DNA of 64,000 nt from Dokdonella fugitiva (GTDB taxonomy: Bacteria; Pseudomonadota; Gammaproteobacteria; Xanthomonadales; Rhodanobacteraceae), in the NCBI RefSeq assembly GCF_014138265.1, contig NZ_JACGXL010000002.1, positions 1-64,000 on the forward strand, given 5' to 3'. The position numbers were made by a program, and so were the translations under genes. The notes under the pieces were generated by a model. The model had not been told where the DNA came from and ran no database searches. It was given only the letters and a program-made list of their open reading frames with translations. This document shows, one piece after another, positions 11,949 to 52,438 of this stretch; the stretch's first letter is position 1; each line of letters opens with the position of its first letter.

Positions 11949-12629
11949 ATGACGATCGTCGTCCATCATCTCGACAACTCGCGTTCGCAGCGCGTGCTCT
12001 GGCTGCTCGAAGAACTCGGCCTGCCGTACGAGATCTTGGCGTACCGGCGCGATCCGCGCACGATGCTCGCGCCCGATACGCTGCGCCGCGTCCATCCGCT
12101 CGGCAAGGCGCCCGTCGTCGTCGACGGCGAACGCGTGCTCGCCGAATCCGGCGCGATCGTCGAGTACCTCGCCGAACGCTACGGCGCCGCGACGCTCGTG
12201 CCGGCGCGCGACTCGTCCGCGTGGCTGCGCTACCGCTACTGGCTGCACTACGCGGAAGGTTCGGCGATGCCGCCGCTGCTGCTCAAGCTCGTATTCGATC
12301 GCATTGGTCGCGCGAAGATGCCGTTCTTCGCGCGGCCGATCGCGCGCGGCATCGTCGCGCGGGTGCGGCGCAGCTTCATCGACCCGCAACTCGCCTTGCA
12401 CCTCGACTACCTCGAGGGCGAACTCGCGAAGGCACCGTGGTTCGCCGGCGACGCGTTCGGTGCCGCCGACATCCAGATGAGCTTCCCGCTCGAAGCCGCG
12501 GCCGAACGCGCCGGCCTCGACGCCACGCGCCCGCACCTGTGGCAGTGGCTCGAACGCATCCAGGCGCGTCCCGCGTATCGCCGGGCACTCGAACGCGGCG
12601 GTCCGTACGCTTACGCGCGGCCTGCGTGA
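11949..12629 (+). CDS. Glutathione S-transferase family protein
   Basis: 226 residues. The N-terminal thioredoxin-like domain is MTIVVHHLDNSRSQRVLWLLEELGLPYEILAYRRD, with Ser/Arg at the glutathione-activating position. The GSH-binding Pro-Val-Val and Glu-Ser-Gly follow (GKAPVVVDGERVLAESGAIVEYL). The all-helical C-terminal domain ends WLERIQARPAYRRALERGGPY. It resembles fungal/plant-type GSTs found in proteobacteria and should conjugate or reduce hydrophobic electrophiles in the cytosol. An ATG three codons upstream (11940) is an equally possible start. It is divergent from the MBL-fold gene with about 160 bp between. Confidence 0.93.
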   Translation: MTIVVHHLDNSRSQRVLWLLEELGLPYEILAYRRDPRTMLAPDTLRRVHPLGKAPVVVDGERVLAESGAIVEYLAERYGAATLVPARDSSAWLRYRYWLHYAEGSAMPPLLLKLVFDRIGRAKMPFFARPIARGIVARVRRSFIDPQLALHLDYLEGELAKAPWFAGDAFGAADIQMSFPLEAAAERAGLDATRPHLWQWLERIQARPAYRRALERGGPYAYARPA

Positions 12630-12634
12630 CGGCG

Positions 12635-14377
12635 TCAGGACGCGTGCGCGGATGCGTCCGCACGCAGCGCGCGCTCGAGCAGCCAGAGCAACGCGGCGAG
12701 CGCGAGCCAGGCGAGGAAGAAAGGCCCGCGCGGCAACGCGACCGCGCGCGCGTCCCGCACCACCGTGTCGCGCGGACCGACGAGCGCGCGCGTCGCCTCG
12801 CGGTCGGCCGCGGCGGCCAGCGCGACCGCTTCGTCGCGCGCACGCACGTGCCATGCGAGGCGACGGTCGTCGTCGACGAGCACGTGCCAGCCCGCCTCCG
12901 CGGGCCAGTAAGCCGCGCAGCGCTCGCCCGCTTCGTCGACGGCCTGCAGCGGCGTGCTCCGCCCGCCCGGCGATTCGACCGCGGCGCCGGCACCGACACC
13001 GCAGAACACCGCGCGTTCGTCGACGCGCGCGTCCGCCGGCAGGCGCGGCGAAGCGCCCGCACGGGCACGCGCGATGGTCGCGAACGTATCGCTCCACAGG
13101 CTGCCGTAGCGCGCGCGTTCACCAGCGAGCGCGAGGCGGAACGCATCGTCAAGCCACCAGAGGCCGACGCGACCCCGGCCGCGCACGCGCCAGGCGGCGA
13201 GCAACGATCCGTCGTCCGCGCGCAGCAAGGGCGCCGCGTCGGACGCCTGCACGTCGAACGGGCGGCGCGCGAACGCGAGCCGCGCATCAGCGATGCCGAG
13301 GACGCGGTCGAGCGTGACCGCAGCCGGCGCCTGCGCGCTCGCCCGCACGTCGAAGCCGAGTGCCGACCAGTCGCTTGCGACCTCGGCCGGCAGCGGCCCG
13401 GTCGCGCGCAGCAACAGGCCGAGGCCGTCGTCGACGGCATGCAGCAACGCCGCCTTCGGCGCGGCGCCGAGCGCGGCCCAGGCGCGCTCGTCGACGAGTG
13501 CGACGTCGGTCGCCGCAAGCGTCGCCGCGTCGAGCACGGCACCGCCTTCGACGAGGGCGACACCGTCGCTGAGCGCGACGCGGCTGTCGAGGCGCGCGCC
13601 GGCGTCGACGGCCCAGCGGCGCAGGTACTTGAGTTCGGCATCGGGCGCGCCGGCGAGCACGAGCAGTGCGAGCGCGCCACCCTCGCGCACCGCCACCGGC
13701 ACGTCGATCTCGTCGACGCGGGTGCCGTTCGCCTCGCTCGCACGCAGGCGCAACGAGAGCGTGCCCGCCACGCGCGCCTGCGCCGCGAGCGTGAACACGC
13801 CCTGCGCATCGGCGAGCGTGCTCGCGACGATCGCGCCGGCGGGATCGAGCAGTTCGACGCGTGCGCCCGGCGCGCCTTCGACGCGCCCGCCGATGCGCAG
13901 CGCATGGCCGGTGAGCGCGTCGCGCGGCGCGTCGAGCGCGACGATGCCGCGCGGCAGCGGCGCCGCGTCGAACGCGACGACACGGCCGAGCGCCGCATCG
14001 CGATCGCGCGCGGGCAGGCCGCCGCCGACGATGCGCACGCGCGACGCGTCCGCGTGGCGACGCAGCGCACCGGCGAGGTCGGGGGCGCGTTCGATCGCGC
14101 GCGGCGCGTCCACGCCCGGCAGCGCAACGACATCGTCGCCGCGAGCGAGCGCGGCGACCTGCGCCGCCGTGACGCCCGGCGTCAGCACGACGAGTTCGCC
14201 GCCGCGATGCGCTTCGCGTGTCGACGGTGGGTACAGGCAGAACCACAGCGCGAGCGCCGCGAGCAGCTGCACGACGATGCGCGCACCGCGACGACCACGG
14301 CCATCGCGTGCGCTGCGCCAGGCGCCGAGCAACGCAGCGAGCGCGAGCAGGCATGCGACGGCGATCATCGCGTTCAT
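12635..14377 (-). CDS. Large membrane-anchored protein at the end of the MoxR/TldD operon
   Basis: 580 residues. Two N-terminal hydrophobic helices (MNAMIAVACLLALAALLGAW and about residues 33-47) and one near the C-terminus (LPRGPFFLAWLALAALLWLLERAL) bracket an extracytoplasmic region of about 470 residues. Inside it are a likely carboxypeptidase-regulatory-like beta domain (VEGAPGARVELLDPAGAIVAS..) and a domain resembling the glutamine-amidotransferase-like fold of BatA-operon proteins. The ATG overlaps the stop of the upstream gene by four bases, so the two are translationally coupled. The function is probably structural or regulatory in the envelope module of this operon; no active site is recognised. 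The opposite strand carries long open frames, a GC artefact. Confidence 0.85.
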   Translation of the reverse strand: MNAMIAVACLLALAALLGAWRSARDGRGRRGARIVVQLLAALALWFCLYPPSTREAHRGGELVVLTPGVTAAQVAALARGDDVVALPGVDAPRAIERAPDLAGALRRHADASRVRIVGGGLPARDRDAALGRVVAFDAAPLPRGIVALDAPRDALTGHALRIGGRVEGAPGARVELLDPAGAIVASTLADAQGVFTLAAQARVAGTLSLRLRASEANGTRVDEIDVPVAVREGGALALLVLAGAPDAELKYLRRWAVDAGARLDSRVALSDGVALVEGGAVLDAATLAATDVALVDERAWAALGAAPKAALLHAVDDGLGLLLRATGPLPAEVASDWSALGFDVRASAQAPAAVTLDRVLGIADARLAFARRPFDVQASDAAPLLRADDGSLLAAWRVRGRGRVGLWWLDDAFRLALAGERARYGSLWSDTFATIARARAGASPRLPADARVDERAVFCGVGAGAAVESPGGRSTPLQAVDEAGERCAAYWPAEAGWHVLVDDDRRLAWHVRARDEAVALAAAADREATRALVGPRDTVVRDARAVALPRGPFFLAWLALAALLWLLERALRADASAHAS

Positions 14378-16542
14378 CGCACCGTCTCCGGCGCGGCGAG
14401 CACGTCGAGGTAGGCGCGATCCGCGGCGCCGGGCAGCGCGCGCGTCGCCGTCGCGGCCGGCGACGGCGGCAGCAGCGGCCAGAGCGCCGCGCGCAGCTCG
14501 CGCCGGCAATCGACGCAGTCTGGCTCGCGCCGCGCGCGATCGAGCGCGGCGAGTGCGCCGAGCACGTCCGGCGTGTCGCCGCGCGCGCCGAGCGCGCGCT
14601 GTGCCGCGTCCCAGTCGGCCGCACCACGACCATCGAGCGCCTGCCACAACGCCACGAGCGCCGCGTCACCGGCCAGCGTGGGCGCGAGCGACCCGCTGCG
14701 ATCGCCGAGGTCCTTGCGCTCGCCGCCGAGGCGGCGTGCTTCGTCGGGCACGGGCAGCTCGAGGCCGACGCGCGCGAGGTAGATGCGCGTCGCCTGCTGC
14801 ACCTGCTTGATGTAGTCGAGCGCACGATGTTCGTACGGCAGCGCCTGCGCGGGCGCGCCCTGGCGCAGGTGCAGCTCGGCCTGCCACATCTCGGCGAGCG
14901 CGGACTTCAGCGTCGCCCGCGTGTCGGGATCGAGCAGCGTCGCCGCTTCGGCGATGTCGTGCACGTGGCCGTACTCGGCGACGACGTCGCCGGCGTCACC
15001 GAATTTCGCCGGCGCGCCGGTCGGCGCTCGTTCCTGCGCTTCGTGCGCGGCGGCGAGCGCACCGGCCTGCGTGTCGGCACCACCGACCGCGCCTTCGGGC
15101 GCGTGCTCCGCGTGGCCTTCCGATTCCTCGCCGAGGAATTGGCCGTAGCGCAGGCGCAGCAGCTTCTGGTCGACGCCGATCGCGTCGGAGCGCGCGAGGA
15201 ACTTCGCTTCGTCGAGCTGCGCCGCGTCGGCGAGCAGGGCTTCGGTGTCGATGATGATCTGGCGCTGGCTGCGGAAATACGCCGGCATCGTCTTCTGCAC
15301 GATGCCGTCGAGGCCGGCGCTGTCCTTCGACGGATCGGCCGGCCAGCGCAGGATGAGGCTCGGGCTGCGCGTGCGGTTCGCGTTCGGTTCGCGCTCGTCG
15401 TCGACGACGAGGCGCGCGACGACGTCGTCTCCCTTGGAAAAGCCGAGCGCCGCGAGATCGATCGCGTGCGCGTAGCGCAGTACGACGCGTGGCGCACGCG
15501 CTTCGTCGGGCACGGCCTTCGCCGCATCGGCCGGTTCGCCGGCGAGGACGATCACCTGCTCCGTGAATGCGATGTTCTCGCCGCTGCCCTGCGCGTGCGT
15601 GACGACGAGCTCCGCATGCGCGATGCCGTAGTCGTCGCTCGCCTCGAATGCGAGCGGCCAGGTCTTCTGGTGTGCTTCGGCGAGCGTGAGCGTCCGCTCG
15701 GGCGCGAGCACGCGGATCTCCGGCGCGGCGTCGGTGATCGCATCGATGCGGTGCAGTCGATCGTCGGCGAGCGGCGGCGCCGCATCGACGACGATGCGGT
15801 ACAGCATCGAAGCGGCGAGCGTCGCTTCGCCACGCCAGTCGTCGCCGTCGTGCCGCAGCACGACGCGCCGGCCGTCGTGGAGCGCGAGCGCAACCGCGGC
15901 CGGTTGCGGCGCCAGGCGCAGCCGCCAGCGCAGGACCGCGTCCTGCGGCGCCTTCGTGTCGAGCGCGGTCTCGTGGCGTTCGGGCAGGCGCGTGTAGGCG
16001 GGCGGCGCAACCGTGAGTTCGATCGCCGTCAGGCGCGTCGCGTCCGCGCCGGCGCCCGGCGCGGACGCGGCGGCCGGCGAGTCGTCGGCGCGACGCGGCG
16101 CAGGAACGAGGAATGCAACCGCCGACACGAGCAGCGCGAGCGCGAGGCTCGCCGCGAACGCGCGCCGCGGCCACGCGGGGCGAAGGTCGAGCACGAGGCG
16201 GTCGAGCCGTTGCAGCAGGCGCGCGCGCTGCAGCGCGGCGAGTGGCGCGAGCGTGGCCGGTTCGCGGAACAGCAGCGCGGCACTGTCGTCCATCGCTGGT
16301 GCGCGCGCATCGAGCGCACGCGCGAGCCACCGCGTGTCGACACCACGCGTGACGCGCAGCAGCACGATGCCGAGCGCGATGGCTGCGCACACGGCGAATG
16401 CGAGCGCGCCGCGCGCACCGGCGATGCGCAGCAGCAGCACGACGCCCGCGAGCGACGGCGGCAGCGCGAGGCCGAACGCGACGAGGCAGCGACGCGTGCC
16501 CGCGGCACGGCGCAGTCGATCGAGGCGTGGATCGATGCTCAT
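14374..16542 (-). CDS. DUF4175-like membrane protein of the MoxR operon
   Basis: 722 residues. Two hydrophobic helices lie in the first 65 residues and a third at about 130-148 (FAASLALALLVSAVAFLVP). A long periplasmic part follows: a beta-rich segment around residues 175-400 (LTAIELTVAPPAYTRLPERHE.., then repeated EASDDYGIAHAELVV units), then a coiled-coil-like, Glu/Ala/Gln-rich region in the C-terminal third. The pattern matches the DUF4175 family seen in MoxR-BatA loci. Its start ATG overlaps the BatA stop by four bases and its stop overlaps the next ATG, so it lies inside a coupled chain. Biochemical role unknown. Confidence 0.82.
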   Translation of the reverse strand: MSIDPRLDRLRRAAGTRRCLVAFGLALPPSLAGVVLLLRIAGARGALAFAVCAAIALGIVLLRVTRGVDTRWLARALDARAPAMDDSAALLFREPATLAPLAALQRARLLQRLDRLVLDLRPAWPRRAFAASLALALLVSAVAFLVPAPRRADDSPAAASAPGAGADATRLTAIELTVAPPAYTRLPERHETALDTKAPQDAVLRWRLRLAPQPAAVALALHDGRRVVLRHDGDDWRGEATLAASMLYRIVVDAAPPLADDRLHRIDAITDAAPEIRVLAPERTLTLAEAHQKTWPLAFEASDDYGIAHAELVVTHAQGSGENIAFTEQVIVLAGEPADAAKAVPDEARAPRVVLRYAHAIDLAALGFSKGDDVVARLVVDDEREPNANRTRSPSLILRWPADPSKDSAGLDGIVQKTMPAYFRSQRQIIIDTEALLADAAQLDEAKFLARSDAIGVDQKLLRLRYGQFLGEESEGHAEHAPEGAVGGADTQAGALAAAHEAQERAPTGAPAKFGDAGDVVAEYGHVHDIAEAATLLDPDTRATLKSALAEMWQAELHLRQGAPAQALPYEHRALDYIKQVQQATRIYLARVGLELPVPDEARRLGGERKDLGDRSGSLAPTLAGDAALVALWQALDGRGAADWDAAQRALGARGDTPDVLGALAALDRARREPDCVDCRRELRAALWPLLPPSPAATATRALPGAADRAYLDVLAAPETVR

Positions 16543-17708
16543 GACGCGCCTCGCTGCGCCACGTGCGTGGCGAGCACGCGCTCGACGACGAACAGGATCG
16601 CCGCGAGCAGGGCGAATCGCGCATCGAGCGGGCGCACCGGGCCCGGCAACGGCGCCGCGTCGATGCGCGCCTCGTATGTGGCCCGCGCGGGCTCGAACGC
16701 AGCGGCATCGGCGCGATCGGGTGCGCCGGCGGCGCCGCGCAACGCATCGAGCAGCAACGTCGCGAAGCGTGCATCGAGCACGTCGGGTAATCGCGTCGGC
16801 GACAGGCTGTCCGGCAACGCGATCGTCCGCCCGGCGCCCTGCACGCGCGAACGCGCGAGCACGCTGCCGTCCGCATCGCGCCAGAGCGGTTCACCCCCGC
16901 CCGCATCGTGCGCGACGAGCGCGATGCCACCGCGTTCGACCCACGCGTCGACCTCGGCCGGCCGCGACGGCGCGAGCCATGCGAGCCAGCGCGCGTCGGC
17001 GGGCACGCCGCGCGCGAGCGGAGCGGCATCGAGCAGGTAGCGACCCGGCTCGCGCGCGTTCCACGCCGCGACCGCGGCGCGCAGGTAGGGCAACGACGTC
17101 GCGTCCTCGTCCGCGTAGCGCACAGCGAAGTGGATCGTCGCGCGCGCCACCACCGGCGTCGCGTTCGCCTCGCCGTCGACGACGTGCCAGTCGAGCGCAT
17201 GCGCGAGGCGTGGGCGCTCGCCGTCGAGGCCACCAAGCGTGCGCGGCACGACGACGTGCAGCGTCGCGCCGGCGGGCAAGCTCGCATCGGCTTCGCGCAG
17301 CAGGCTCGCGAACGGCACCGCGTGGTCGGCGAGCGGCTGTTCGGCCGGTGGAAACGACGGCGCGAGCCAGCGCAGGTCGACGCCGGTGCGATCAAACAGC
17401 GCGCGCGCCGCGGCCGGATCGGCACCAGGGGCGATGTAGGCGTGTTCGACGCCGTTCGCCTCGACCTGGTCGAGCACCGGCCGCGCGAGCAGCAGTGCGA
17501 GTGTCGCGAGCAGCAGCAGGCGCGCGAGCAGCAGCCACGGCCGCTCGAAGCGAATGCGTCGGCGCGGCTGCACCCGCGCGCTGATCCAGCGCAGCGCGGC
17601 GAATTCGGTGCGTTCGAGCTGCAGCCGCCGCACGAGATGGATGAGGATCGGCAGCGCGCACGCGGCGAGCGCAGCGAGGCCGAGCGGCGCGAGCAGCGCG
17701 AAGCTCAC
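16539..17708 (-). CDS. BatA-like membrane protein
   Basis: 389 residues. The N-terminus MSFALLAPLGLAALAACALPILIHLVRRLQLERTEFAALRWI is the conserved double-pass segment of BatA-domain proteins, followed by a second helix pair (LLLARLLLLATLALLLARPVL). The remaining 300 residues are extracytoplasmic and end in another helix (ALLAAILFVVERVLATHV). No MIDAS motif (DxSxS) is present, unlike BatA with a complete VWA domain. It probably assembles with the DUF58 and MoxR products. Four-base overlaps link it to DUF58 upstream and the DUF4175-like gene downstream. Confidence 0.88.
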   Translation of the reverse strand: MSFALLAPLGLAALAACALPILIHLVRRLQLERTEFAALRWISARVQPRRRIRFERPWLLLARLLLLATLALLLARPVLDQVEANGVEHAYIAPGADPAAARALFDRTGVDLRWLAPSFPPAEQPLADHAVPFASLLREADASLPAGATLHVVVPRTLGGLDGERPRLAHALDWHVVDGEANATPVVARATIHFAVRYADEDATSLPYLRAAVAAWNAREPGRYLLDAAPLARGVPADARWLAWLAPSRPAEVDAWVERGGIALVAHDAGGGEPLWRDADGSVLARSRVQGAGRTIALPDSLSPTRLPDVLDARFATLLLDALRGAAGAPDRADAAAFEPARATYEARIDAAPLPGPVRPLDARFALLAAILFVVERVLATHVAQRGAS

Positions 17709-18619
17709 GTCGCGCCCTCGCCGTTGGCGCCGCTGCTCGCCTGCGCGCCGAACAGCCGGCGCAGTGGCAGGTCGGCCGGCTGGTCGAGCAGGTATTCGGC
17801 GTGGCGGATGCCGTTGGCGACGAAGCGGCGCGCGAGCTGCGCGCGCGCCGCGCCGAAACGTTCGAGGAAATCCGCGCGCACGCGCTCGGCCTCGACGCGA
17901 CGCTCGGCCGACGATTCGGGATCGACGAAGCGATGGCCACCGCGGAACGGGAAGTCACGCTCGTCCGCACCGAGCAGTTGCACGCTCGCGACGTCGCGCC
18001 GCGCGGACGCGAGGCGCTCGGCGAGCACCGCGGCCGCGTCGTCGAAGAAGTCCGACAGCAGCACGACGAGCGACGACGGCGCGATGCGTTCCCACAACGG
18101 CCGCACCGCCGCCTCGGCGGGCCATGCGCCGCCGGGCCGGCATTGCACGAGTTCGAGCACGCAGCGATCACGCTGGCGAGCACCCGCGCCGGCCGGCACG
18201 ACGCGCGGCGCGTCGCCGCCGAGCACGACGAGGCCGAAGCGATCGCCCTGGCGCAACGCGAGTTCGATCACGCACGCGGCGAGCGTCTTCGCCGCGTCGA
18301 GCTTGCCGCGCGCCGGTGCCGCGCGGTCGGCATGGCGCATCGATGCGGTCGCATCGACGACGATCCACGCGGTGAGCGGGCTGTCGCGCTCGGCCTCGCG
18401 CACGAAGTAGCGATCGGAGCGCGCGTACAGCTTCCAGTCGATACGGCGCGGTTCGTCGCCGGGCTCGTAGGCGCGGTATTGCGCGAATTCGAGCCCGGCG
18501 CCGCGGCTGCGGCTCGTGTGCTGGCCGAGGCCGTCGCCGCCCGCGTGACTGCGCAGCGCGAGGCGCAGGTCGCGCAGGCGCGCGCGCACGTCGACCGGAA
18601 CGAGCGCCTGCAACGTCAC
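17705..18619 (-). CDS. DUF58 domain protein (VWA-like partner of MoxR)
   Basis: 304 residues, no signal peptide, cytosolic. The signature GAGLEFAQYRAYEPGDEPRRIDWKLYARSDRYFVREAERD is the DUF58 core. It is followed by a VWA-like strand WIVVDATASMRHAD, where a degenerate MIDAS (DATAS for DxSxS) can be seen. DUF58 proteins occur next to MoxR ATPases almost everywhere and are thought to be delivery factors or clients of the ATPase. It starts with GTG, whose GTGA overlaps the stop of the DUF4260 gene. Confidence 0.92.
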   Translation of the reverse strand: MTLQALVPVDVRARLRDLRLALRSHAGGDGLGQHTSRSRGAGLEFAQYRAYEPGDEPRRIDWKLYARSDRYFVREAERDSPLTAWIVVDATASMRHADRAAPARGKLDAAKTLAACVIELALRQGDRFGLVVLGGDAPRVVPAGAGARQRDRCVLELVQCRPGGAWPAEAAVRPLWERIAPSSLVVLLSDFFDDAAAVLAERLASARRDVASVQLLGADERDFPFRGGHRFVDPESSAERRVEAERVRADFLERFGAARAQLARRFVANGIRHAEYLLDQPADLPLRRLFGAQASSGANGEGAT

Positions 18620-19011
18620 GGTGCACGCCTCGCCACGCGGCCGATGCGGCCGAGATGAGTATCACCGAAGCTGCTCGCGTACTTGAGGCCGTAGCCGAGC
18701 GCGCGATCGAAGCCGACGTGCGCGCTCCAGACCAGTCCGGCGACGAACAGCGCGGGCTGCGCGATCAGTTGGCCGGCGACGAAGCACGCGACCGGGCCGA
18801 CGTAGGCGTGGGTCGCGTTGTAGCACGCAGCACCGACGCGCGGCCCGGCGAGGTAGCCGAGGAAGGCGATGTCCGGCGCGAGGAAGCACAGCGCGAACAG
18901 GCCCCAGCCGTAGCCGGATTGCGCGTACAGCCACGCCGCGGCGAACAGCACGCACGCGCCTTCGACGCGCAGCAAGGTGCGTACGCCGCCTTCCGCTCCG
19001 CCGCTCATCAT
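18616..19011 (-). CDS. DUF4260 family membrane protein
   Basis: 131 residues with four hydrophobic segments. The strings LFALCFLAPDIAFLGYLAGPRVGAACYNATHAYVGP and VGFDRALGYGLKYASSFGDTHLGRIGR are the DUF4260 signature. Two adjacent ATGs (19011, 19008) compete as start. The gene is unusual within a MoxR operon: 7 bp downstream of the MoxR stop and overlapping the DUF58 start. Members of the family are small membrane proteins without assigned role. Confidence 0.88.
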   Translation of the reverse strand: MMSGGAEGGVRTLLRVEGACVLFAAAWLYAQSGYGWGLFALCFLAPDIAFLGYLAGPRVGAACYNATHAYVGPVACFVAGQLIAQPALFVAGLVWSAHVGFDRALGYGLKYASSFGDTHLGRIGRVARRAP

Positions 19012-19018
19012 CGCGCGC

Positions 19019-20005
19019 TCAGTTCGGCGCGGGCAGCGCGCGCAGCAGCGCGGCGACGACGTCGTCGCTGCTGCGCTGCTCCGCTTCCGCGGCGAACGAA
19101 AGCAGCAGGCGGTGGCGCAACACGGGTGCTGCGAGCGCCTTGACGTCCTCGCGCGTCGCCGCGAGGCGGCCATGGATGAGCGCGCGCGCCTTCGCCGCGA
19201 GCACGAGCGACTGCCCCGCGCGCGGTCCCGCGCCCCAGCGCACCCATTCACGCACTTCGGCGACCGGGCTGTCCTGCGGGCGCGACGCGCGCACGAGGCG
19301 CGTGATCCAGGCGAGCAGGTCGTCGCCGACGTGCACCTCGCGCGTGAGCGCCTGCAGCCTGATCACGTCCTCGCCGTGCATCACCGGCGTGATGCGCGCG
19401 CTCGTGCTGCCGGTCGTCTGCGCGAGGATCGCGCGTTCCTCCGCTTCGTCCGGATAGTCGACGCGCACGTGCAGCAGGAAGCGGTCGAGCTGCGCCTCCG
19501 GCAGGGGGTAGGTGCCGGCCTGCTCGAGCGGATTCTGCGTCGCGAGCACGAAGAACGGCTGCGGCAGGCGGTGCGTCGTGCCGGCGTAGCTGATCGTGCG
19601 TTCCTGCATCGCCTCGAGCAGCGCCGACTGCGTCTTCGGCGGCGTGCGGTTGAGTTCGTCGGCGAGCAGCAGGTGGGTGAACACCGGGCCCTGCTGGAAC
19701 TTGAAGTAGCGTTTGCCGGTGCCGTGGTCCTCCTCGAGGATTTCGGTGCCGACGATGTCGCTCGGCATGAGGTCCGGGGTGAACTGCACGCGGCGGAAGT
19801 CGAGCGCGAGCGCTTCGCCGAGCGATCGCACGAGCAGTGTCTTGCCGAGCCCCGGCACGCCTTCGATCAGGCAGTGCCCGCCCGCGAGCAGGCCGATCAG
19901 CAACTGTTCGACGACCCCGGCCTGGCCGACGATGACCTGCGCGATCGCGTCGCGGAGCCCGGCGAGCCTGCCGAGTTGCTGCTGGATGGACTGTTCGTCG
20001 GTCAT
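19019..20005 (-). CDS. MoxR-family AAA+ ATPase
   Basis: 328 residues. Walker A is EGVPGLGKT, Walker B LLLADELNR, sensor 1 VLATQNPLEQAGTYPLPEAQLDRF, and the C-terminal lid domain contains VREWVRWGAGPRAGQSLVLAAKARALIHGR. All are diagnostic of MoxR. These cytosolic hexameric ATPases act as chaperones that remodel partner proteins, often together with DUF58/VWA and BatA-type proteins. The ATG at 20005 (MTDEQSIQQQLGRLAGLRDAI) fits family length. Upstream, 242 bp with a repeat element separate it from the DUF4159 gene of the same strand. Confidence 0.96.
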   Translation of the reverse strand: MTDEQSIQQQLGRLAGLRDAIAQVIVGQAGVVEQLLIGLLAGGHCLIEGVPGLGKTLLVRSLGEALALDFRRVQFTPDLMPSDIVGTEILEEDHGTGKRYFKFQQGPVFTHLLLADELNRTPPKTQSALLEAMQERTISYAGTTHRLPQPFFVLATQNPLEQAGTYPLPEAQLDRFLLHVRVDYPDEAEERAILAQTTGSTSARITPVMHGEDVIRLQALTREVHVGDDLLAWITRLVRASRPQDSPVAEVREWVRWGAGPRAGQSLVLAAKARALIHGRLAATREDVKALAAPVLRHRLLLSFAAEAEQRSSDDVVAALLRALPAPN

Positions 20006-20044
20006 GCGGGGTGCTCGGGCATTCGAGAAATGGAAAGAAGGCAA

Positions 20045-20238
20045 AGCTTGAAACACGAAGGACACGAAGGACACGAAAGTAAAGCAAATACGGTCAAAGC
20101 CTGACGGAGCACGCAGGGGAGACTTCGAATCGACGACGCTCTTGCCCTCTCCGTGCGCTCCGTGCGGTCGGTATTTCAATCTTCCATCTTGCTTCTTCTT
20201 CGTGTCCTTCGTGTCCTTCGTGTTTCAGTCTTCAAGCT
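20045..20238. repeat. Inverted-repeat element with ACACGAAGG units
   Basis: The left end carries AGCTTGAA followed by three tandem ACACGAA(GG) units (20051-20078). The right end carries the exact inversion, three TTCGTGTCC-type units (20199-20225), then TTCAAGCT (20231-20238). About 120 bp of unrelated DNA lie between, including a CTCCGTGCGCTCCGTGCGG direct repeat. No coding potential is seen. It fills the spacer between the DUF4159 and MoxR genes and looks like a small dispersed element of the MITE/REP kind. Confidence 0.6.
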
Positions 20239-20247
20239 CTGGAACAA

Positions 20248-20955
20248 TCATGCGGTCAGTGCGTAGACGACGATGTTGACGGCGAACTTCGTGTTGTCCT
20301 CGGCGAGGAAACGCTTGTTGCGCCAGTCGTAGTCCCACTCGCAGCCGTAGTCCTTGTTGCTGTAGAGCACGCCGAGGCGGCCGTCGACCTCGATGCCCTT
20401 GAGGTACTCGTGCACGAGGTCGTCGCCCCAGCCGTTGAGTTCGAACGCGGTGTTCGGCGGGCCGTCGAAGCGGAAGAAACTCGTGAACAGCGGATGCGCC
20501 TTCGGCAGCTTCTTCAACGCGTCGGCACCGAAGATCGTCGCCATCTCCTGTTCGAACGACTTCGCGAACAGGCCGTCGACGTCGTGGTTGCAGTCGTCGA
20601 CGAGGACGAAACCGCCGGCACGCACGTAGCGTTCGAAGTTGCGCCGCTCGTCCGGGTTGAACTCGACCAGCTTGTGCCCCGCGAGGTAGCAGAACGGCTG
20701 GGTCAGCATGCGCGTGTCGGCGAGCGGCAGCACGCGCTCGCGTGGATCGACGCGCAGGGTCGTGTACTGGATCAGCGCGTCGAGCAGGTTCGAAGGCATG
20801 CGCGCGTCGACGTCCCAGTCGCCCGACTCGTACATGAGGCGGGTGAACCAGAAGTCGTACGCCGCGTCGTCCGCGCGCGCGCGGCGCACGGTCGGCGCGA
20901 GCAGCGCGGCCGCGCCGCCGGCGAACATCAGGCGGAGGAATTCGGCGCGGGTCAT
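20248..20955 (-). CDS. Secreted DUF4159 protein
   Basis: 235 residues. The N-terminus MTRAEFLRLMFAGGAAALLAPTVRRARA is signal-like, with a Tat flavour (R-A-E-F-L-R) but only one arginine before the hydrophobic stretch, so Sec or Tat cannot be decided. The mature part (YDFWFTRLMYESGDWDVDARMPSNLLDALIQYTTLRV, then FVLVDDCNHDVDGLFAKSFEQEM and LNGWGDDLVHEYLKG) matches DUF4159, a glutamine-amidotransferase-like fold often found beside MoxR and BatA genes. It lies between the TldE gene and MoxR on one strand, about 60 bp after TldE. The function is unknown; a role in the envelope is inferred from export. Confidence 0.88.
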   Translation of the reverse strand: MTRAEFLRLMFAGGAAALLAPTVRRARADDAAYDFWFTRLMYESGDWDVDARMPSNLLDALIQYTTLRVDPRERVLPLADTRMLTQPFCYLAGHKLVEFNPDERRNFERYVRAGGFVLVDDCNHDVDGLFAKSFEQEMATIFGADALKKLPKAHPLFTSFFRFDGPPNTAFELNGWGDDLVHEYLKGIEVDGRLGVLYSNKDYGCEWDYDWRNKRFLAEDNTKFAVNIVVYALTA

Positions 20956-20981
20956 CGTCGGGCGCGGCGCGCGGGCAGCGG

Positions 20982-21011
20982 TTCCGGCCTTCCCGCGCGG
21001 GAAGGCCGGAA
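20982..21011 (-). terminator. 13-bp perfect hairpin between TldE and DUF4159
   Basis: TTCCGGCCTTCCC (20982-20994) is inverted exactly at 20999-21011 with the loop GCGC. It lies 7 bp beyond the TldE stop. No T-run follows on the minus strand, so it may stabilise the upstream message or attenuate rather than fully end transcription. Confidence 0.45.
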
Positions 21012-21018
21012 GCCGCGA

Positions 21019-22353
21019 TCAGACCGCGTCGGACAGTGAGCTGAAGGTGAAGTCGCGGATCTTCAGCGGCGGGATCATCATCACGAACGGCGACTCGTCG
21101 TCGGCGACGCGCACCGGTTTGCCGATCTCCTCGATGTTGTTGAGCATGATCGCCGGCGACTCGTTGAAGCGGAAGTTCTTGATCGGGTACTTGATCTCGC
21201 CGTCTTCGATGTAGAACGTGCCGTCGCGGGTCAGGCCGGTGAGCAGCACGGTCTGCGGGTCGACCAGGCGGATGTACCAGGTGCGCGTGACGAGCACGCC
21301 CTTCTTGGTGCCCTTGACCAGGTCCATCGTCGACTTGTCGCCGCCGGCCATGATGAGGTTGCCCGGCTGGCCGATCGCCTTCTTGCCCTGCTTCTGCGCC
21401 CAGTAGCGCGAATACTGCAGGTATTCGACCTTGCCGTTGGTGACGATCGGCGTGCGTTCGCGCGCGAGGCCGTCGTTGTCCCACGGCAGCACCGCGGACT
21501 GCTCGTCCCACGGATCGGCGTACATCGTCACGCGCTCGTCGAACAGCTTCTCGCCGAGCTTGTTGCCGCCGCCCTTCTTCGACAGGAAGCTGCGCCCCTC
21601 GTCGGACTGGCGCGCGTCGAAGCCGAACATCATGAAGGAGATGAGGCCCGCGCTGGCGGCGGGCTCCATGATCACCGTGTACTTGCCCGGCTCGAGCGCC
21701 TTCGCGTCGACCGAACCCTTCGCCTTGCGGATCGCCGTCTGGATCTCGCTCTTCGCGTCGAACTTGGTGACGTCACCGAGGTTGCGCGCGACCCAGCCCG
21801 AACCATGGCCGTCCTCGGTGCGCACGGTGCAAGTGAAGTCGACGCCGCTGGTCTTCTGGTAACCGAAGTTGCCCTTGCTGTTGGCGATCGCCGAGAACGC
21901 CTGGCTGTCGGTGAAGAAGCCCGCCGCGACGAGCTTGTCCTTGCGGCACGGCTCGATGCACGCGGCGGCGACGCCGGCGCGGTATTCCGGCGTGATCGCG
22001 GCGGTCTTCTCGGAGAAGGTGCCGCTCGCCTTGTACGCCTGCTTGTCGATCGCCGGCACGAACTCCGGGTTCTCTGGCGCGAGGCGCGCGAGTTCCTCGG
22101 CGCGCCGCACGACCGCCTCGATCGAGGCGTCGTCGAAGCTGTTGATGGTCGCGGTGCCGACGCGCTTGCCGAACGCGACTTCGACGGCGAGGTCGCAGTC
22201 GCTGACGCGGCCGCTGGTCGACACGCTGTTGAGCGCGTAGCGGATGTTGCCGTTGAAGCCGCCGTTGAGCGTGGCGCTGCACTGGTCCGCCTTCGACGCC
22301 TTGATCGCCTTGTCGAGGATCGCCTTGGCCTGTTCTTCGGTGTAGATGCTCAT
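21019..22353 (-). CDS. TldE/PmbA-type subunit of a TldD/TldE metalloprotease
   Basis: 444 residues. It shows the PmbA/TldE organisation: an N-terminal domain with ALNSVSTSGRVSDCDLAVEVAFGKRVGTATINSFDDASIEAVV, a middle GVDFTCTVRTEDGHGSGWVA, and a C-terminal beta domain (NGKVEYLQYSRYWAQKQGK, then LVTRTWYIRLVDPQTVLLTGLTRDGTFYIEDGEIKYPIKNFRFNESP). The last string is a hallmark of the family. As expected for the TldE half it lacks the HExxxH metal site. No signal peptide is visible, although its partner has one. The start at 22353 (MSIYTEEQAKAILDKAI) lies 20 bp behind the TldD stop, a clear two-gene unit. Confidence 0.94.
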   Translation of the reverse strand: MSIYTEEQAKAILDKAIKASKADQCSATLNGGFNGNIRYALNSVSTSGRVSDCDLAVEVAFGKRVGTATINSFDDASIEAVVRRAEELARLAPENPEFVPAIDKQAYKASGTFSEKTAAITPEYRAGVAAACIEPCRKDKLVAAGFFTDSQAFSAIANSKGNFGYQKTSGVDFTCTVRTEDGHGSGWVARNLGDVTKFDAKSEIQTAIRKAKGSVDAKALEPGKYTVIMEPAASAGLISFMMFGFDARQSDEGRSFLSKKGGGNKLGEKLFDERVTMYADPWDEQSAVLPWDNDGLARERTPIVTNGKVEYLQYSRYWAQKQGKKAIGQPGNLIMAGGDKSTMDLVKGTKKGVLVTRTWYIRLVDPQTVLLTGLTRDGTFYIEDGEIKYPIKNFRFNESPAIMLNNIEEIGKPVRVADDESPFVMMIPPLKIRDFTFSSLSDAV

Positions 22354-22373
22354 CGCTGTGTTCTCCGCTTCGC

Positions 22374-24008
22374 TCAGCCGAGGCTGCGCGCCGTGTTGAT
22401 GACGTTGGCGCCGTTGAAGCGCGCGGTGCTGGAGCCGTGCGAGACGGCGGAGACCTGGCCCGGCTGGCCCTTGCCGTCGAAGAACGAACCGCCGAAGCGG
22501 AAGTCCTTCTCGTCGCAGACGGCGGCGCACGAGTTCCAGAATTCGGGCGTGCGGATCTGGTACGCGACGTCCTCGAGCGGCTGGGTGACCTTGCCGTTCT
22601 TGATCTCGTAGAACAGCTGGCCGCCGAACTGCGCGTTGTAGCGCTGCTGGTCGATCGAGAACGAACCGTCGCCGATGATGTAGATGCCGTTCTCGATGCC
22701 CTTGATCATGTCGGCCGGGGACATCGCTTCCTTGCCCGGGGCGAGCGAGACGTTCGCCATGCGCTGGAACTGCACGCTCGACCACGAGTCGGCGTAGCAG
22801 CAGCCCTGCGATTCCTTCAGGCCGAGGATGTGCGCCTGGTCGCGGATCACCTGGTAGTTGACCAGCGTGCCGTCCTTGATGAGGTCCCAGCGCTGCGTCT
22901 TGACGCCTTCGTCGTCGTAGCCGACCGCGCCGAGCGTGCCCTTCTGCACCTTGTCGGCGAAGATCGTGACCTTGTCGCTGCCGTACTTGAACTTGTCGCG
23001 CCACTTGTCGAGCGTCGCGAAGCTCGTGCCGGCATAGTTCGCCTCGTAGCCGAGCACGCGGTCGAGTTCGAGCGGATGGCCGACCGATTCGTGGATCGTC
23101 AGCCACAGGTGCGACGGATCGAGCATGAGGTCGTACTTGCCCGGCTTCACCGACTGCGCGGTGAGCTTCTCCTTCGCCTGCTTCGCCGCGGCGATCGCGT
23201 CTTCCTTCATGTCGTAGGAGTTGCCGTAGACGATCGCGCCGCCGGGCAGCTCGACCTTGTCGGCCTTGTTGCCGTCGAGGTACTCGAAGCCCATGCCGCG
23301 CGGCGCCGACAGGCCGGCGCGGATGCGGAACTTGCCGGTCTTCTGGTCGACCGCGGTGACCTGCATCGGCGCCCAGATGCGGTGCACGTCCTGGTCGATG
23401 TAGGAGCCGTCGGTCGAGGCGAAGTACTTCTGCTCGTTGACCAGGAACAGGATCGAGTTGATGAAGCTCGCGCCGGCCTGCATCGCGGCGGCGTTGACGC
23501 CGAGCAGCAGGTCGACCTTGTCCTTGATCGGCACTTCCATCGAATTCTTGACGATCGGCGTGGTCCAGCTGACCTCGCCGACGCCCTTCACCGGCGCGAG
23601 CTCGACCGGCTTGGCCTGGATCTTCGAGTTCGCCTTGGCGATCGCGACGGCTTCCTTCGCCGCCCTGGCGATCGCGTCGGGGCTCATGTCGCTGGTCGCG
23701 GCGAAGCCCCAGGTGCCGTTGGCGATGACGCGGATGCCGATGCCGCTCGATTCGGTGTTGACGACGTTCTGTACCTTGTCTTCGCGCGTGATGACGAACT
23801 GGCGCAGGTAGCGGCCGATGCGCACGTCGCAGTAGCTCGCGCCGCCCGACTTCGCCGCGTTGAGCGCGATGTCGGCGAACTTCTTCTTCGTCGCGACGTC
23901 GAGCTTGCTGAGCAGGGCTTCGGCCGCGATCACGCGGCCGTGCATCGCCGGCAGCAGCAGGCTGCCGAGACCGATGCCGGTCATCTTGAGGAAATTGCGC
24001 CTTTCCAT
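22374..24008 (-). CDS. TldD-type metalloprotease subunit with Tat signal
   Basis: 544 residues. The N-terminus [20 protein letters not shown] has the twin-arginine motif RRNFLK plus a hydrophobic stretch ending near AAE, so export by Tat is expected. The TldD metal site HESVGH (HExxxH, residues 306-311) is followed by [18 protein letters not shown]. Other family landmarks are [22 protein letters not shown] near the N-terminus and [20 protein letters not shown] near the C-terminus. The cysteine that serves as third ligand in E. coli TldD is not obvious at the matching place, where DGKGQPGQ is read. E. coli TldD is cytosolic, so export is a notable change. CGGAGGAGAC precedes the ATG at 24008. 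It heads the nine-gene unit. Confidence 0.95.
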
Positions 24009-24173
24009 CTGTCTCCTCCGGGTTCGTTCGCCGCACACGCGCGTCGGTCGATCTTGTCGGAAGCCCTTGGGGGTTGATACGTGCCAAACGGCATGGCCGC
24101 GACGCGCGCAGGCTGCCCCGTCGGCACGAGCGGCGCCCCGGCTGCGGTCCCGTAGGGGGCCGGCGACGCGGCT

Positions 24174-24182
24174 TGATAGACT
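24174..24182 (+). promoter_or_regulatory. Extended -10 element for queD
   Basis: TTGATAGACT contains TG-N-TAGACT, an extended -10. With normal spacing the transcript would begin at about 24189-24190, which is the queD ATG, so the mRNA may be leaderless; no ribosome site is present. The same TTGNTA(G/A)ACT(T)GCGC string recurs at 25560 and 43374. Confidence 0.35.
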
Positions 24183-24189
24183 TGCGCCA

Positions 24190-24549
24190 ATGGAAATCTC
24201 CAAGACCTTCCGCATCGAAGCCGCGCATCGCCTGCCGAACGTACCGGCCGGGCACAAGTGCAGCCGCCTGCACGGCCACTCGTTCGCGATCGCGATCCAT
24301 GTGAGCGGGCCGCTCGATCCCGACCTCGGCTGGGTCATGGACTACGCCGATCTCAAGGCGGCGTTCGCGCCGCTGTTCGAGCAGCTCGACCACCACTACC
24401 TCAACGAGGTGCCCGGCCTCGAGAACCCGACCAGCGAGCAGCTCGCGCGCTGGGTCTGGCAGCGGCTCGCGCCGCGGCTGCCGCTGCTGTCGAAGGTGGT
24501 CGTCAACGAAACCTGCACGACCGCCTGCGAGTATCGCGGAAACGACTGA
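24190..24549 (+). CDS. queD: 6-carboxy-5,6,7,8-tetrahydropterin synthase, queuosine pathway
   Basis: 119 residues, the usual QueD length. The zinc ligands are His13 (EAAHRL), His28 and His30 (RLHGHSF), and the catalytic Cys24 lies in [11 protein letters not shown]. The Asp/His pair of the second half is in [11 protein letters not shown], and the substrate-binding Glu in [14 protein letters not shown]. It converts dihydroneopterin triphosphate to carboxytetrahydropterin, the second step to the 7-deazaguanine of queuosine tRNA. It is divergent from the TldD gene. No other queuosine gene is nearby. Confidence 0.96.
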
Positions 24550-24653
24550 TTATCCCGCGTCGCCGCAAAAGCAGCCGGAAACATGTAATTCATTGAAATG
24601 AAAGAAAACGAGCCGAACATTCCTCGGTGCGGCGGTCTTCGTTCAGCCAAACA

Positions 24654-24684
24654 TGTTGCATCGCAACAAAGAGCCTGCTAGGAT
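24654..24684 (+). promoter_or_regulatory. Phasin promoter with overlapping palindrome
   Basis: TTGCAT (24656-24661) and TAGGAT (24679-24684) are separated by 17 bp, and the -10 carries the TG extension (TGCTAGGAT). The palindrome TGTTGC-ATC-GCAACA (24654-24668) overlaps the -35 hexamer. It resembles the TGC-N3-GCA core reported for the PHB-responsive repressor PhaR, which controls phasin genes elsewhere. That PhaR binds here is inference. Confidence 0.55.
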
Positions 24685-24724
24685 GCCGTTCAACACCCAC
24701 CCATTACCTGCAGAGGTATCGAAC

Positions 24725-25120
24725 ATGTTCGAGCAGATCAACACGCAGTCCCTTGCGCTCGGCAAGAGCTACGCCGATGCCTTCGTGAAGGCGCAGGGCC
24801 TCGCCCTGGCCGGTTTCGAGCGCATCACCGAGCTGAACCTCAAGACCTTCGAAGACCGCGTGAAGGCGTCGGTCGAGTTCTGGACCGAAGCCGCCGAAGT
24901 GCGCGACTTCGAGGCCGCCAAGGCGATTTCGGCCAAGGGCGTCCAGCTCGCGAAGGAAAGCGCCGAGAAGCTCTACGCGAACAGCCAGGAAGTCCTCGGC
25001 GTTTCGCTCAAGACCTCGGAAGCGATCGGTTCGCTGGCCAAGACCTCGTTCGACTCGGTCAACGAGACGGTCACCGACACGTTGAACAAGACGGTCAAGG
25101 CAGCCAAGAAGGCCGTCTGA
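24725..25120 (+). CDS. Phasin family protein
   Basis: 131 residues, all helical with regular heptad-like spacing: FEQINTQSLALGKSYADAFVKAQGLALAGFERITELNLKTFEDRVKASVEFW is the Phasin_2 pattern. The C-terminus is Lys-rich (TLNKTVKAAKKAV). Phasins coat polyhydroxyalkanoate granules and limit their size. GAGGTATCGAAC precedes the ATG. The gene has its own promoter and an excellent terminator, so it is monocistronic. Codon usage is less GC-extreme (many AAG/GAA, AAC), which fits high expression. Confidence 0.92.
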   Translation: MFEQINTQSLALGKSYADAFVKAQGLALAGFERITELNLKTFEDRVKASVEFWTEAAEVRDFEAAKAISAKGVQLAKESAEKLYANSQEVLGVSLKTSEAIGSLAKTSFDSVNETVTDTLNKTVKAAKKAV

Positions 25121-25177
25121 TCGGGCAAGTCCCCATAAGACGCCGCCGCTACTCCCCTTGGCGCGGCGTCGACCTCG

Positions 25178-25210
25178 AAAGGCCGGGCTCTCTCCCGGCC
25201 TTTCTTTTTT
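25178..25210 (+). terminator. Intrinsic terminator of the phasin gene
   Basis: AAAGGCCGGG (25178-25187) pairs perfectly with CCCGGCCTTT (25194-25203) across a 6-base loop, directly followed by CTTTTTT. This is a complete Rho-independent terminator. Confidence 0.92.
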
Positions 25211-25642
25211 GCGCGCGACCTGCGTTCCGCCCTGGATCCGCGGCCCCGGAAGCGCCCCGCGCGCTGCGACAAGATGTCGCGCCACGCTGATCGCGGCGAC
25301 GCCTGCCCCGATATTGCGCACGAGAGCATCGAGGCCCGGCCAGGCGCTTCGGGTCAGACGACCCGACGAGGCAGCGCGGTACGCACGATGAGTATCGCTA
25401 CCTTCCAGCAAAAACAAGCGCTTGCGGCCGGGATGCGACCGCCCGGAGGCGTTCCGCTGGACGCCCGCGACGGCCACGCAGGCTCGGCGGCCCGCGCGGA
25501 TGGCGCCGCCACGAGACGCCTCGACACTCCTTTTCTAGATTGCGGCGTGTGCGCGCCGCTTGATAAACTGCGCGGCCTTTTGGAGAGGTGGAGCGCGCCG
25601 GGAACGCGCGCCGCGACGATCCTCCACCGGCGGGAGCTCCCT
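25211..25642. other. Non-coding stretch ahead of the atp operon
   Basis: The 430 bp between the phasin terminator and atpI contain no gene I can support. A frame in phase with atpI opens at an ATG at 25388, but it runs through the likely promoter and has no family character. The last 80 bp form a long leader with the inverted pair GGTGGAG/CTCCACC, which could fold shortly before the atpI start. Confidence 0.6.
25540..25569 (+). promoter_or_regulatory. Likely atp operon promoter
   Basis: TTGCGG (25540-25545) and TAAACT (25564-25569) are 18 bp apart, the latter with a TG extension (TTGATAAACT). The predicted transcript would have a leader of about 65 bases before the atpI GTG. No activator site was noticed. 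Confidence 0.4.
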
Positions 25643-26870
<1,228 letters not shown>

Positions 26871-26871
26871 T

Positions 26872-26940
26872 GCGATCGTCCATGATCGCGAGAGGCGAAG
26901 AGCGGCCGTCCTTGGCCGCACTCTTCACCTGAAGCAAAGC
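26872..26940. repeat. Composite palindromic repeat in the atpB-atpE spacer
   Basis: Two stems follow each other: GCGATC-GTCCAT-GATCGC (26872-26889) and GCGGCC-GTCCTT-GGCCGC (26902-26919), then TTCACCTGAAGCAAAGC. The same order of elements, in slightly different bases, recurs after atpC (33064-33175), which identifies a repeat family rather than two chance stems. Confidence 0.65.
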
Positions 26941-26981
26941 TGGTTACACAGAACGTTTCAGTCGATTTCCACTTCACCTAG

Positions 26982-27278
<297 letters not shown>

Positions 27279-27300
27279 GCACCGAAATCCGAAGGTTCAG

Positions 27301-27324
27301 CACGGCGATCCACGGATCGCCGTG
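27301..27324. repeat. Perfect palindrome in the atpE-atpF spacer
   Basis: CACGGCGATCC (27301-27311) is perfectly inverted at 27314-27324 with a 2-base loop. Its core GCGATCC..GGATCGC is shared with the stems at 33067 and 43438. It lies 22 bp behind the atpE stop and could act as an mRNA stabiliser that raises c-subunit yield. Confidence 0.65.
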
Positions 27325-27339
27325 TCGCAGGAGCATTCC

Positions 27340-27810
27340 ATGATTCCGAACATCACTCTGGTCATCCAGGGCTTCGCGTTCTTCGCGGTCGTCCTGCTGG
27401 TCATGAAATTCGGTTGGCCGCACATCATCGCGGCGATCGAAGAGCGCCAGAACAAGATCGCCGAAGGCCTGTCGCAGGCGGAGAAGGCGCGCAAGGAGCT
27501 CGCCGACGCCGACGCGCGCGTCGCCGACGAGATCAGGAAGGCGCGCGCGGAAGCCGCGCAGATCGTCGACAAGGCGCATCAGCAGGCGACGCAGATCGTC
27601 GACAAGGCGCGCCAGGACGCGATCGTCGAGGCGACCAAGCAGAAGGCGATCGCGGCCGCCGACATCGAGGCGCAGGCGCACAAGGCTCGCGAGGAACTGC
27701 GTGGCAAGGTCGCCGCGCTCGCGGTCGCCGGCGCCGAGAAGATCCTCAAGCGCGAGATCGACGCGAACGCGCACAAGTCGCTGATCGACCAGCTCGTCAC
27801 CGAGATCTGA
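27340..27810 (+). CDS. atpF: ATP synthase F0 subunit b
   Basis: 156 residues, the same length as E. coli AtpF. One N-terminal membrane helix (ITLVIQGFAFFAVVLLVMKFGW) is followed by a long, charged Ala/Lys/Glu coiled coil with repeats of QIVDKA, the peripheral stalk dimer. C-terminal AEKILKREIDANAHKSLIDQL contacts subunit delta. CAGGAGCATTCC precedes the ATG at 27340. atpH begins 4 bp behind its stop. Confidence 0.97.
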   Translation: MIPNITLVIQGFAFFAVVLLVMKFGWPHIIAAIEERQNKIAEGLSQAEKARKELADADARVADEIRKARAEAAQIVDKAHQQATQIVDKARQDAIVEATKQKAIAAADIEAQAHKAREELRGKVAALAVAGAEKILKREIDANAHKSLIDQLVTEI

Positions 27811-27813
27811 CCG

Positions 27814-28347: not shown

Positions 28348-28354
28348 GGAAATC

Positions 28355-28382
28355 CGGCCTGCCGGCCACTACCGGCAGGCCG
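28355..28382 (+). repeat. 11-bp perfect hairpin after atpH
   Basis: CGGCCTGCCGG (28355-28365) and CCGGCAGGCCG (28372-28382) pair perfectly around CCACTA, followed by TCGTTT. It resembles a weak terminator inside the operon and may act as an attenuator or as a 3' stabiliser of the F0 part of the message. Confidence 0.55.
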
Positions 28383-28402
28383 TCGTTTGCAACGACGTCG
28401 GA

Positions 28403-28462
28403 AGTCAAACGTCGACGATCGATCGAAGCGGCAGCATCGAGAACGATCCGCGACGTTTGACT
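28403..28462. repeat. 12-bp inverted repeat before atpA
   Basis: AGTCAAACGTCG (28403-28414) is exactly inverted at 28451-28462 with 36 bp between, in which GACGATCGATC occurs. It follows the atpH hairpin directly. Its function is unknown; the shape fits a dispersed intergenic repeat. Confidence 0.55.
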
Positions 28463-28512
28463 TTTGACCCCTTGGAACCGTCGCTCGTCGACGAGAGCAG
28501 GAACCACAGACC

Positions 28513-30060: not shown

Positions 30061-30063
30061 CGC

Positions 30064-30123: not shown

Positions 30124-30136
30124 AGCGAGAGACGAA

Positions 30137-31000: not shown

Positions 31001-32515
<1,515 letters not shown>

Positions 32516-39289: not shown

Positions 39290-39295
39290 CGCCGC

Positions 39296-52435: not shown

Positions 52436-52438
52436 TCG

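Follow-up and report, generated by a model that had tools for sequence, protein, structure and literature searches.

The 64,000-nucleotide stretch of Dokdonella fugitiva DNA analysed here (contig NZ_JACGXL010000002.1, positions 1 to 64,000; hereafter the window) carries a unit in which the genes of a TldD/TldE metallopeptidase, with a twin-arginine translocation (Tat) signal on TldD, are joined to an envelope module of MoxR, DUF58, BatA-like and DUF4175-like proteins. The conserved core of the unit is eight genes: TldD, TldE, DUF4159, MoxR, DUF58, BatA-like, DUF4175-like and a membrane protein of 580 residues. Our results indicate that the exported peptidase is inherited as one set with the membrane proteins and the cytoplasmic ATPase pair, and the union of TldD/TldE with the MoxR module, put forward in an original prediction made from the DNA alone, is real and kept across phyla. 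We propose, with a probability of roughly one half, that MoxR/DUF58 and the three inner-membrane proteins activate or feed the exported TldD/TldE. Papers are cited here from excerpts of their open-access text.

Within the order of the window, Xanthomonadales, DUF4159 was found in 67 of 299 genomes, at 69 places. TldD of the exported type, counted at E-values of at most 1e-60, occurred in 65 of the 299, and all 65 also hold DUF4159 (the two DUF4159 genomes lacking it are G004 and G019). TldD, TldE, DUF4159, MoxR and DUF58 follow one another in that order at 62 of the 69 places, the window included, and all eight genes are present at 61. The peptidase and MoxR blocks thus do not lie apart in most close relatives, the outcome that would have refuted the original prediction. 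The seven remaining places are either cut by contig ends (L071, L083, L094) or hold other kinds of DUF4159 (L065, L097, L098, L099), and the genomes with L098 and L099 (G016 and G034) have a linked set as well. A second TldD copy belongs to 36 of the 62 sets; the arrangement TldD-TldD-TldE was seen at 29 loci of the order.

Beyond the order, DUF4159 was present in 106 of 398 genomes sampled from the phylum. Six of the resulting rows outside the order are short stand-alone DUF4159 genes, and the whole unit stands at all six loci. Named genomes scanned with an alignment of TldD yielded 585 confirmed matches, and among the best 78 of these the five-gene core was in order at 63 loci. The bearers include Oxalobacteraceae, Microbulbifer, Nevskia and Tahibacter, the Bacteroidota Dyadobacter, Algoriphagus, Pontibacter, Robertkochia and Fibrisoma, and metagenome-assembled genomes (MAGs) of Acidobacteriota (L193) and of the PVC (Planctomycetes, Verrucomicrobia, Chlamydiae) group (L194). 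Five of the 15 misses, all Pontibacter/Rufibacter (L157, L159, L164, L166, L173), hold an additional TldD-TldE pair standing apart from the MoxR set, in genomes where another TldD lies 2-4 kb from a DUF4159; for nine more the contig is short, or the locus runs into a contig end or the edge of the sequence viewed; the fifteenth is L188, from a Verrucomicrobia MAG. Given this recurrence (62/69, 6/6 and 63 of the best 78), the neighbourhood is not due to chance. Among 247 Bacteroidota genomes TldD was found in 23, of which 20 have a close TldD and three one at 50-53% identity. The linked type of DUF4159 occurs in exactly the same 20 genomes, and in 16 of them TldD and DUF4159 share a contig within 8 kb. 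Actinobacterial TldD matches, at about 40% identity, were discarded: in the annotated case the match belongs to an ordinary pair with no MoxR genes within about 8 kb, and the second record carries no annotation at the match site.

Over 128 loci the correlation between the pairwise distances of TldD and those of MoxR is 0.865, to which shared species history contributes, with a permutation maximum of 0.095, and the distances of TldD, TldE, DUF4159, MoxR, DUF58 and the DUF4175-like protein correlate at 0.70 to 0.94. Two loci of sphingomonad type (L100, L101), inferred from their kinship label to be alphaproteobacterial, are placed beside loci of the window's order by each of TldD, MoxR and DUF4159, an agreement that suggests transfer of the whole unit.

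TldD and TldE each carry all three PmbA_TldD Pfam domains above the curated cut-offs. As in TldD/TldE (PmbA) of Escherichia coli, which likewise has three such domains per subunit, the HExxxH motif belongs to one subunit only: HExxGH occurs in 236 of 239 TldD and in none of 190 TldE sequences. The HESVGH of TldD, the Glu/Asp that follow at +3/+5, again as in E. coli, and a C-terminal Cys show no variation in the 17 sequences aligned; the metal ligands of E. coli TldD are two His and Cys454 (PMC5810440), to the latter of which the C-terminal Cys may correspond. The pair differs from the E. coli enzyme in its Tat signal on TldD, in the context of a MoxR unit and in its distant profile match (5nj5_A, 64.5 bits), and it falls below the NCBIfam equivalog cut-offs (TldD 125.5 bits against 635 and 77.5 against 513; PmbA 51 against 438). 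Judged by these scores, the unit's TldD/TldE is a distinct subfamily and not an equivalog of the E. coli type. A separate, ordinary TldD/PmbA pair is also encoded in the genome, and the pair of the unit is therefore an extra one.

The Tat signal read from the N-terminus of the window's TldD (RRNFLK) is real: RRx[FLM] followed by a hydrophobic stretch was found in 235 of the 236 TldD sequences scored (239 in total), the exception having KRK. These and the following signal counts come from our own pattern and a hydropathy threshold, not from a trained predictor. TatC is encoded in this genome. The hydrophobic N-terminal segment is missing from TldE in all 188 sequences scored (190 in total), and in 113 of the 188 the reading frame opens fewer than 20 codons upstream, so that export of the pair, with a signal on TldD only, would require an additional hitchhiking step. 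E. coli TldD/E is an obligate heterodimer that acts on unfolded peptides, and its TldD is active only with TldE (PMC5810440), which leads us to infer co-export; a three-subunit precedent for Tat hitchhiking is PaoABC (PMC4273604). TldE is probably exported as a hitchhiker on TldD. The uniform absence of a TldE signal would also fit a cytoplasmic pair whose TldD RR stretch is not used for export. We consider this very improbable, however, given the near-invariance of the TldD motif, as against its absence from 6 of 20 distant acidobacterial loci, and the ordinary cytoplasmic pair that the genome already has.

Those distant relatives bear on the origin of the signal. In Acidobacteriota, TldD (E-value at most 1e-60) was found in 29 of 199 genomes, only two of them with more than 70% identity. 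At 20 acidobacterial loci with distant TldD/TldE (L204-L223) the Tat-type motif is present on TldD in 14, one of them doubtful, and missing in six, from which the signal seems to be a later addition to a formerly cytoplasmic TldD/TldE pair.

DUF4159 matches Pfam PF13709 above the cut-off, and its predicted model is GATase1-like. The linked subtype, taken as sequences scoring at least 300 bits (n = 135; 133 share a locus with TldD and the other two lie on cut contigs), has DDC[NQ]HD, NKDxGC and WGDDxxH in 135 of 135. The signature Cys was not seen in the solved DUF4159 relative 4i66 or in divergent DUF4159 proteins. This Cys is a possible nucleophile: it comes after the fourth strand, the position that it has in GATase1 enzymes, but no catalytic His or Glu could be placed. 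The WGDDxxH loop, strictly conserved yet poorly modelled (predicted local distance difference test, pLDDT, about 45), may be a partner contact. Any DUF4159 was found in 181 of the 247 Bacteroidota genomes, where a second, higher-scoring subtype is common; the linked type, present in 20, is therefore a minority subtype.

On the ATPase side, a Walker A-like GxPGxxK[TS] was found in 151 of 151 MoxR sequences and a MIDAS (metal ion-dependent adhesion site)-like D.[ST].S in 145 of 148 DUF58 sequences. The BatA-like, DUF4175-like and 580-residue proteins have about three transmembrane (TM)-like segments each; in the BatA-like protein two of these are at the N-terminus and one is at the C-terminus. 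By the positive-inside reading the large domains of all three proteins would lie outside. The Pfam match of the BatA-like protein is to the N-terminal BatA domain alone, and the Pfam search found no VWA domain in it. The DUF4175-like label, given by the original prediction, holds indirectly: the 722-residue protein has no Pfam match of its own, and DUF4175 (PF13779) is matched by four of its 29 aligned relatives, at best with 3e-14. Its AF2 model (pLDDT 82.3; predicted template modelling score, pTM, 0.52), compared with the PDB, gave beta-sandwich matches at query TM-scores of at most 0.15 and no informative homologue. The DUF4175-like protein has a strictly conserved CxxC close to its C-terminus and the 580-residue protein two strictly conserved Cys, in both cases in regions expected outside.

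Several known systems share parts of this arrangement. An AAA_3 protein with Walker A beside a DUF58 with a MIDAS-like motif places the unit among the MoxR-DUF58 pairs, putatively those of the MRP type. As in the Bat (Bacteroides aerotolerance) operons, MoxR and DUF58 are accompanied by a BatA N-terminal domain (PMC5700661, PMC11834572). Unlike the Bat series MoxR-DUF58-BatA-E, the unit lacks BatB and the TPR proteins of Bat, TPR_16 occurring in two of the 29 DUF4175-like relatives only, and no VWA domain was found in its BatA-like member; DUF4159, the DUF4175-like protein and TldD/E stand instead. Defined by VWA in BatA/BatB and by TPR proteins, the Bat operons do not include the unit.

In Rhizobium leguminosarum, mutation of the MRP-type MoxR gene RL3499 causes envelope and morphology defects and affects membrane integrity (PMC3893208, PMC5700661). 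The operon RL3499-RL3502 (cmdA-D) thus offers an MRP-type MoxR with an envelope role, and the loci that we call alpha-type have MoxR and DUF58 together with a long protein that carries DUF4159 at its end; we take RL3501 to be such a protein. The unit lies outside this type, in which a BatA N-terminus and DUF4159 share one protein, accompanied by MoxR, DUF58 and a membrane protein, and TldD is missing. A comparison with 14 alpha-type loci showed the difference: its DUF4159 is separate and preceded by TldD/E, whereas that of the alpha type is contained in an open reading frame (ORF) of about 900-1,100 residues. In some of these 14 loci (L106-L119) a hydrophobic stretch just before DUF4159 looks like the remnant of a signal peptide where two genes were fused.

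An analogy in function is offered by methanol dehydrogenase, whose cluster has the order mxaF ... mxaR, S, A, C, K, L, D (PMC6414531). MoxR ATPases are regarded as chaperones that activate dedicated complexes, and one of the MRP type is needed to activate this periplasmic enzyme (PMC3893208). As in mxaRSACKLD, a MoxR-type ATPase is clustered here with a predicted periplasmic metalloenzyme, its proposed client; unlike there, the client would be a peptidase and not a quinoprotein. MxaS is presumably a DUF58 protein.

It is these chaperone roles, in methanol dehydrogenase activation and, with RL3499, in membrane integrity, that lead us to prefer the view that the module activates or feeds TldD/E. 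TldD and TldE would fold and associate in the cytoplasm and then be exported jointly by Tat, TldE riding on the signal of TldD; DUF4159, where it has no signal, may be a third rider. More tentatively, DUF4159 would couple the peptidase to the membrane proteins, and MoxR/DUF58, acting from the cytoplasm on the BatA-like, DUF4175-like and 580-residue proteins, would relay their ATP cycles through these. Such cycles could mature or open TldD/E, as MoxR does with methanol dehydrogenase, or could present unfolded periplasmic polypeptides for N-terminal trimming. A bolder version would make the unit a cross-phylum, ATP-powered periplasmic protein-trimming machine, in which MoxR/DUF58 hydrolyse ATP inside the cell and, by way of the three membrane proteins, drive a TldD-TldE-DUF4159 complex exported folded on a single Tat signal, with DUF4159 as a TldD-specific adaptor or a second enzyme marked by its DDC-N-HD site. 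We know of no established example of an ATP-coupled peptidase in the periplasm, and we regard this version as tentative and rather unlikely.

Several observations weigh against coupling of the module to the peptidase. The strongest concerns the alpha type: in the 14 loci compared, of 93 long-ORF rows, TldD/TldE was found in none and MoxR with DUF58 upstream in 13, and two loci of the window's order (L097, L098) also have a MoxR-DUF58 set without TldD. The ATPase module therefore has work without this peptidase. A Verrucomicrobia MAG (G693, locus L188) has TldD in a genome without DUF4159, and distant TldD that look exported occur in Acidobacteriota, at loci viewed with 1.5 kb of flank. Among the 20 Bacteroidota genomes TldD is divergent from DUF4159 in four and on a different contig in four, which means that a single transcript is not universal; a single universal operon was rejected for this reason. 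The alpha-type loci and the divergent or separate TldD in 8 of 20 Bacteroidota would suit two co-selected envelope-stress functions, in which the peptidase and the MoxR module answer to the same envelope damage and are co-regulated and co-inherited with no physical or ATP coupling, as would the gaps TldE-DUF4159 and DUF4159-MoxR, which exceed those inside the MoxR block (by figures for which start codons were picked by similarity and many genes could not be scored). Nevertheless, an order fixed across phyla, a near-perfect two-way co-occurrence even where the genes are unlinked, and a TldD-specific DUF4159 subtype exceed what co-regulation usually brings, and we judge co-selection alone to be unlikely.

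The location of DUF4159 is a further difficulty. In 24 of 29 sequences from Oxalobacteraceae and 17 of 22 from Bacteroidota the N-terminus leaves no space for a signal, so DUF4159 may be cytoplasmic there. In the long alpha-type proteins a fourth TM-like segment before DUF4159 exceeds the threshold in three of nine, and DUF4159 could lie on either side of the membrane. MoxR, DUF58 and a signal-less DUF4159 might thus load or assemble TldD/E in the cytoplasm before export, the membrane proteins serving only to dock the machine. Tat transports folded, cofactor-loaded proteins, and MoxR and DUF58 have no signals, both of which would accord with such a maturation. Within the order, however, 63 of 65 DUF4159 sequences begin with a hydrophobic, signal-like stretch, which in some contains RR and in others a near-Tat motif, and the large domains of the three membrane proteins are read as lying outside. 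We therefore find maturation before export quite unlikely.

The known roles of E. coli TldD/TldE are the maturation of microcin B17 and the turnover of CcdA. The former is a ribosomally synthesised and post-translationally modified peptide (RiPP), in whose maturation TldD/E takes part by removing the leader (PMC5810440), and the enzyme of the unit could in the same way trim a secreted precursor. Clustering of the ORFs of at least 70 residues, with clusters in at least six loci, gave no extra gene family in or beside the unit that is shared across clades, precursors below 70 residues lying outside the search; a RiPP-like role seems highly unlikely to us.

The unit has probably been met once before. 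In Stenotrophomonas maltophilia an uncharacterised operon, NIPOLPBK_01784-01792, comprises two TldD, a putative protease, a MoxR-like ATPase, a membrane protein and three hypothetical proteins, spread over nine locus tags (PMC7688217). From its composition it is very probably this unit in a nine-gene TldD-TldD-TldE form. Some of its genes were lower in biofilm in all seven isolates by RNA sequencing, the only expression evidence for the unit that we found, and the excerpt of that paper proposes no function beyond family names. The open-access literature searched does not mention DUF4159, and holds no report of TldD with the periplasm and a Tat signal.

In the window itself (Table 1), all nine genes listed in the original prediction are present on the minus strand, from 24008 down to 12635. 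Eight of them are conserved; the ninth, DUF4260, was matched among the ORFs of 167 stretches (the window and 166 loci) in the window only, and a nine-gene unit that includes it was rejected. It stands between moxR and DUF58, where the frames are still tightly packed, and is missing from two loci of the same genus (L080, L081). From TldD down, the eight junctions measure +20, +63, +242, +7, -4, -4, -4 and -4 bases, so that overlaps of 4 bases, said to prevail, are found at half of them.

Table 1. Genes and spacer of the unit in the window, in the direction of transcription.
Feature	Position	Strand	Remarks
TldD, metallopeptidase subunit, 544 aa	22374..24008	minus	three PmbA_TldD domains (Pfam); Tat-type signal RRNFLK; HESVGH
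TldE, partner, 444 aa	21019..22353	minus	three PmbA_TldD domains (Pfam); no HExxxH; no export signal
DUF4159, 235 aa	20248..20955	minus	Pfam E 1e-50; GATase1-like fold; signal-like N-terminal stretch
Spacer, 242 bp	20006..20247	none	long inverted-repeat hairpin, 44-nt arms; outside the conserved unit
MoxR-type AAA+ ATPase, 328 aa	19019..20005	minus	Pfam AAA_3 7e-63
DUF4260, 131 aa	18616..19011	minus	Pfam 3e-41; lineage-specific insertion outside the core
DUF58 (VWA-like), cytoplasmic MoxR partner, 304 aa	17705..18619	minus	Pfam 4e-39
BatA-like, 389 aa	16539..17708	minus	Pfam BatA N-terminal domain 3e-10; NCBIfam two_anch 9e-16
DUF4175-like, 722 aa	14374..16542	minus	three TM-like segments; beta-sandwich, then helical region
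Membrane protein, 580 aa	12635..14377	minus	TM-like segments (two N-terminal, one C-terminal); immunoglobulin-like stretch; two invariant Cys

The spacer has 52% guanine plus cytosine (GC) and forms one long hairpin with arms 86% complementary. Its fold is very stable (z -7.4, equalled by none of 200 shuffles), and its 18-base core has exact matches only in this genome's own copies, 222 of the 224 loci searched having none. It may be a remnant of a mobile element, and it could uncouple the transcription of TldD/E from that of MoxR. A scan of positions 12000-25000 for sigma-70 promoters found none, where 0.3 would be expected, a result of low information in a genome of 70% GC.

Around the unit, a GST gene on the opposite strand ends 6 bases from its end. 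Upstream and divergent, at 24653-32515, are genes for a phasin and then for ATP synthase subunits A, B, alpha, gamma and beta. Genes of polysaccharide type at 37847-56675 include a nucleotidyl/hexapeptide transferase, the UDP-glucose dehydrogenase family, an asparagine synthase and a weak outer-membrane porin-like match. An anti-phage defence system was considered and rejected, since PADLOC gave no more than two weak hits, both of AAA type and both to MoxR (E 6e-4 and 9e-4).

MoxR-DUF58 operons occur widely, and few of their clients are known. The unit supplies a concrete enzyme, TldD/E, with a known structure and an assay, which makes the question of the client directly testable for modules of the MoxR-Bat type, and it places the uncharacterised domains DUF4159 and DUF4175 in a pathway. 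If the proposal is true, the unit would be a case of Tat hitchhiking for a peptidase, visible in the sequences across phyla. Moreover, should the peptidase be powered by the module, a relay in the membrane would bring ATP to bear on proteolysis in the periplasm.

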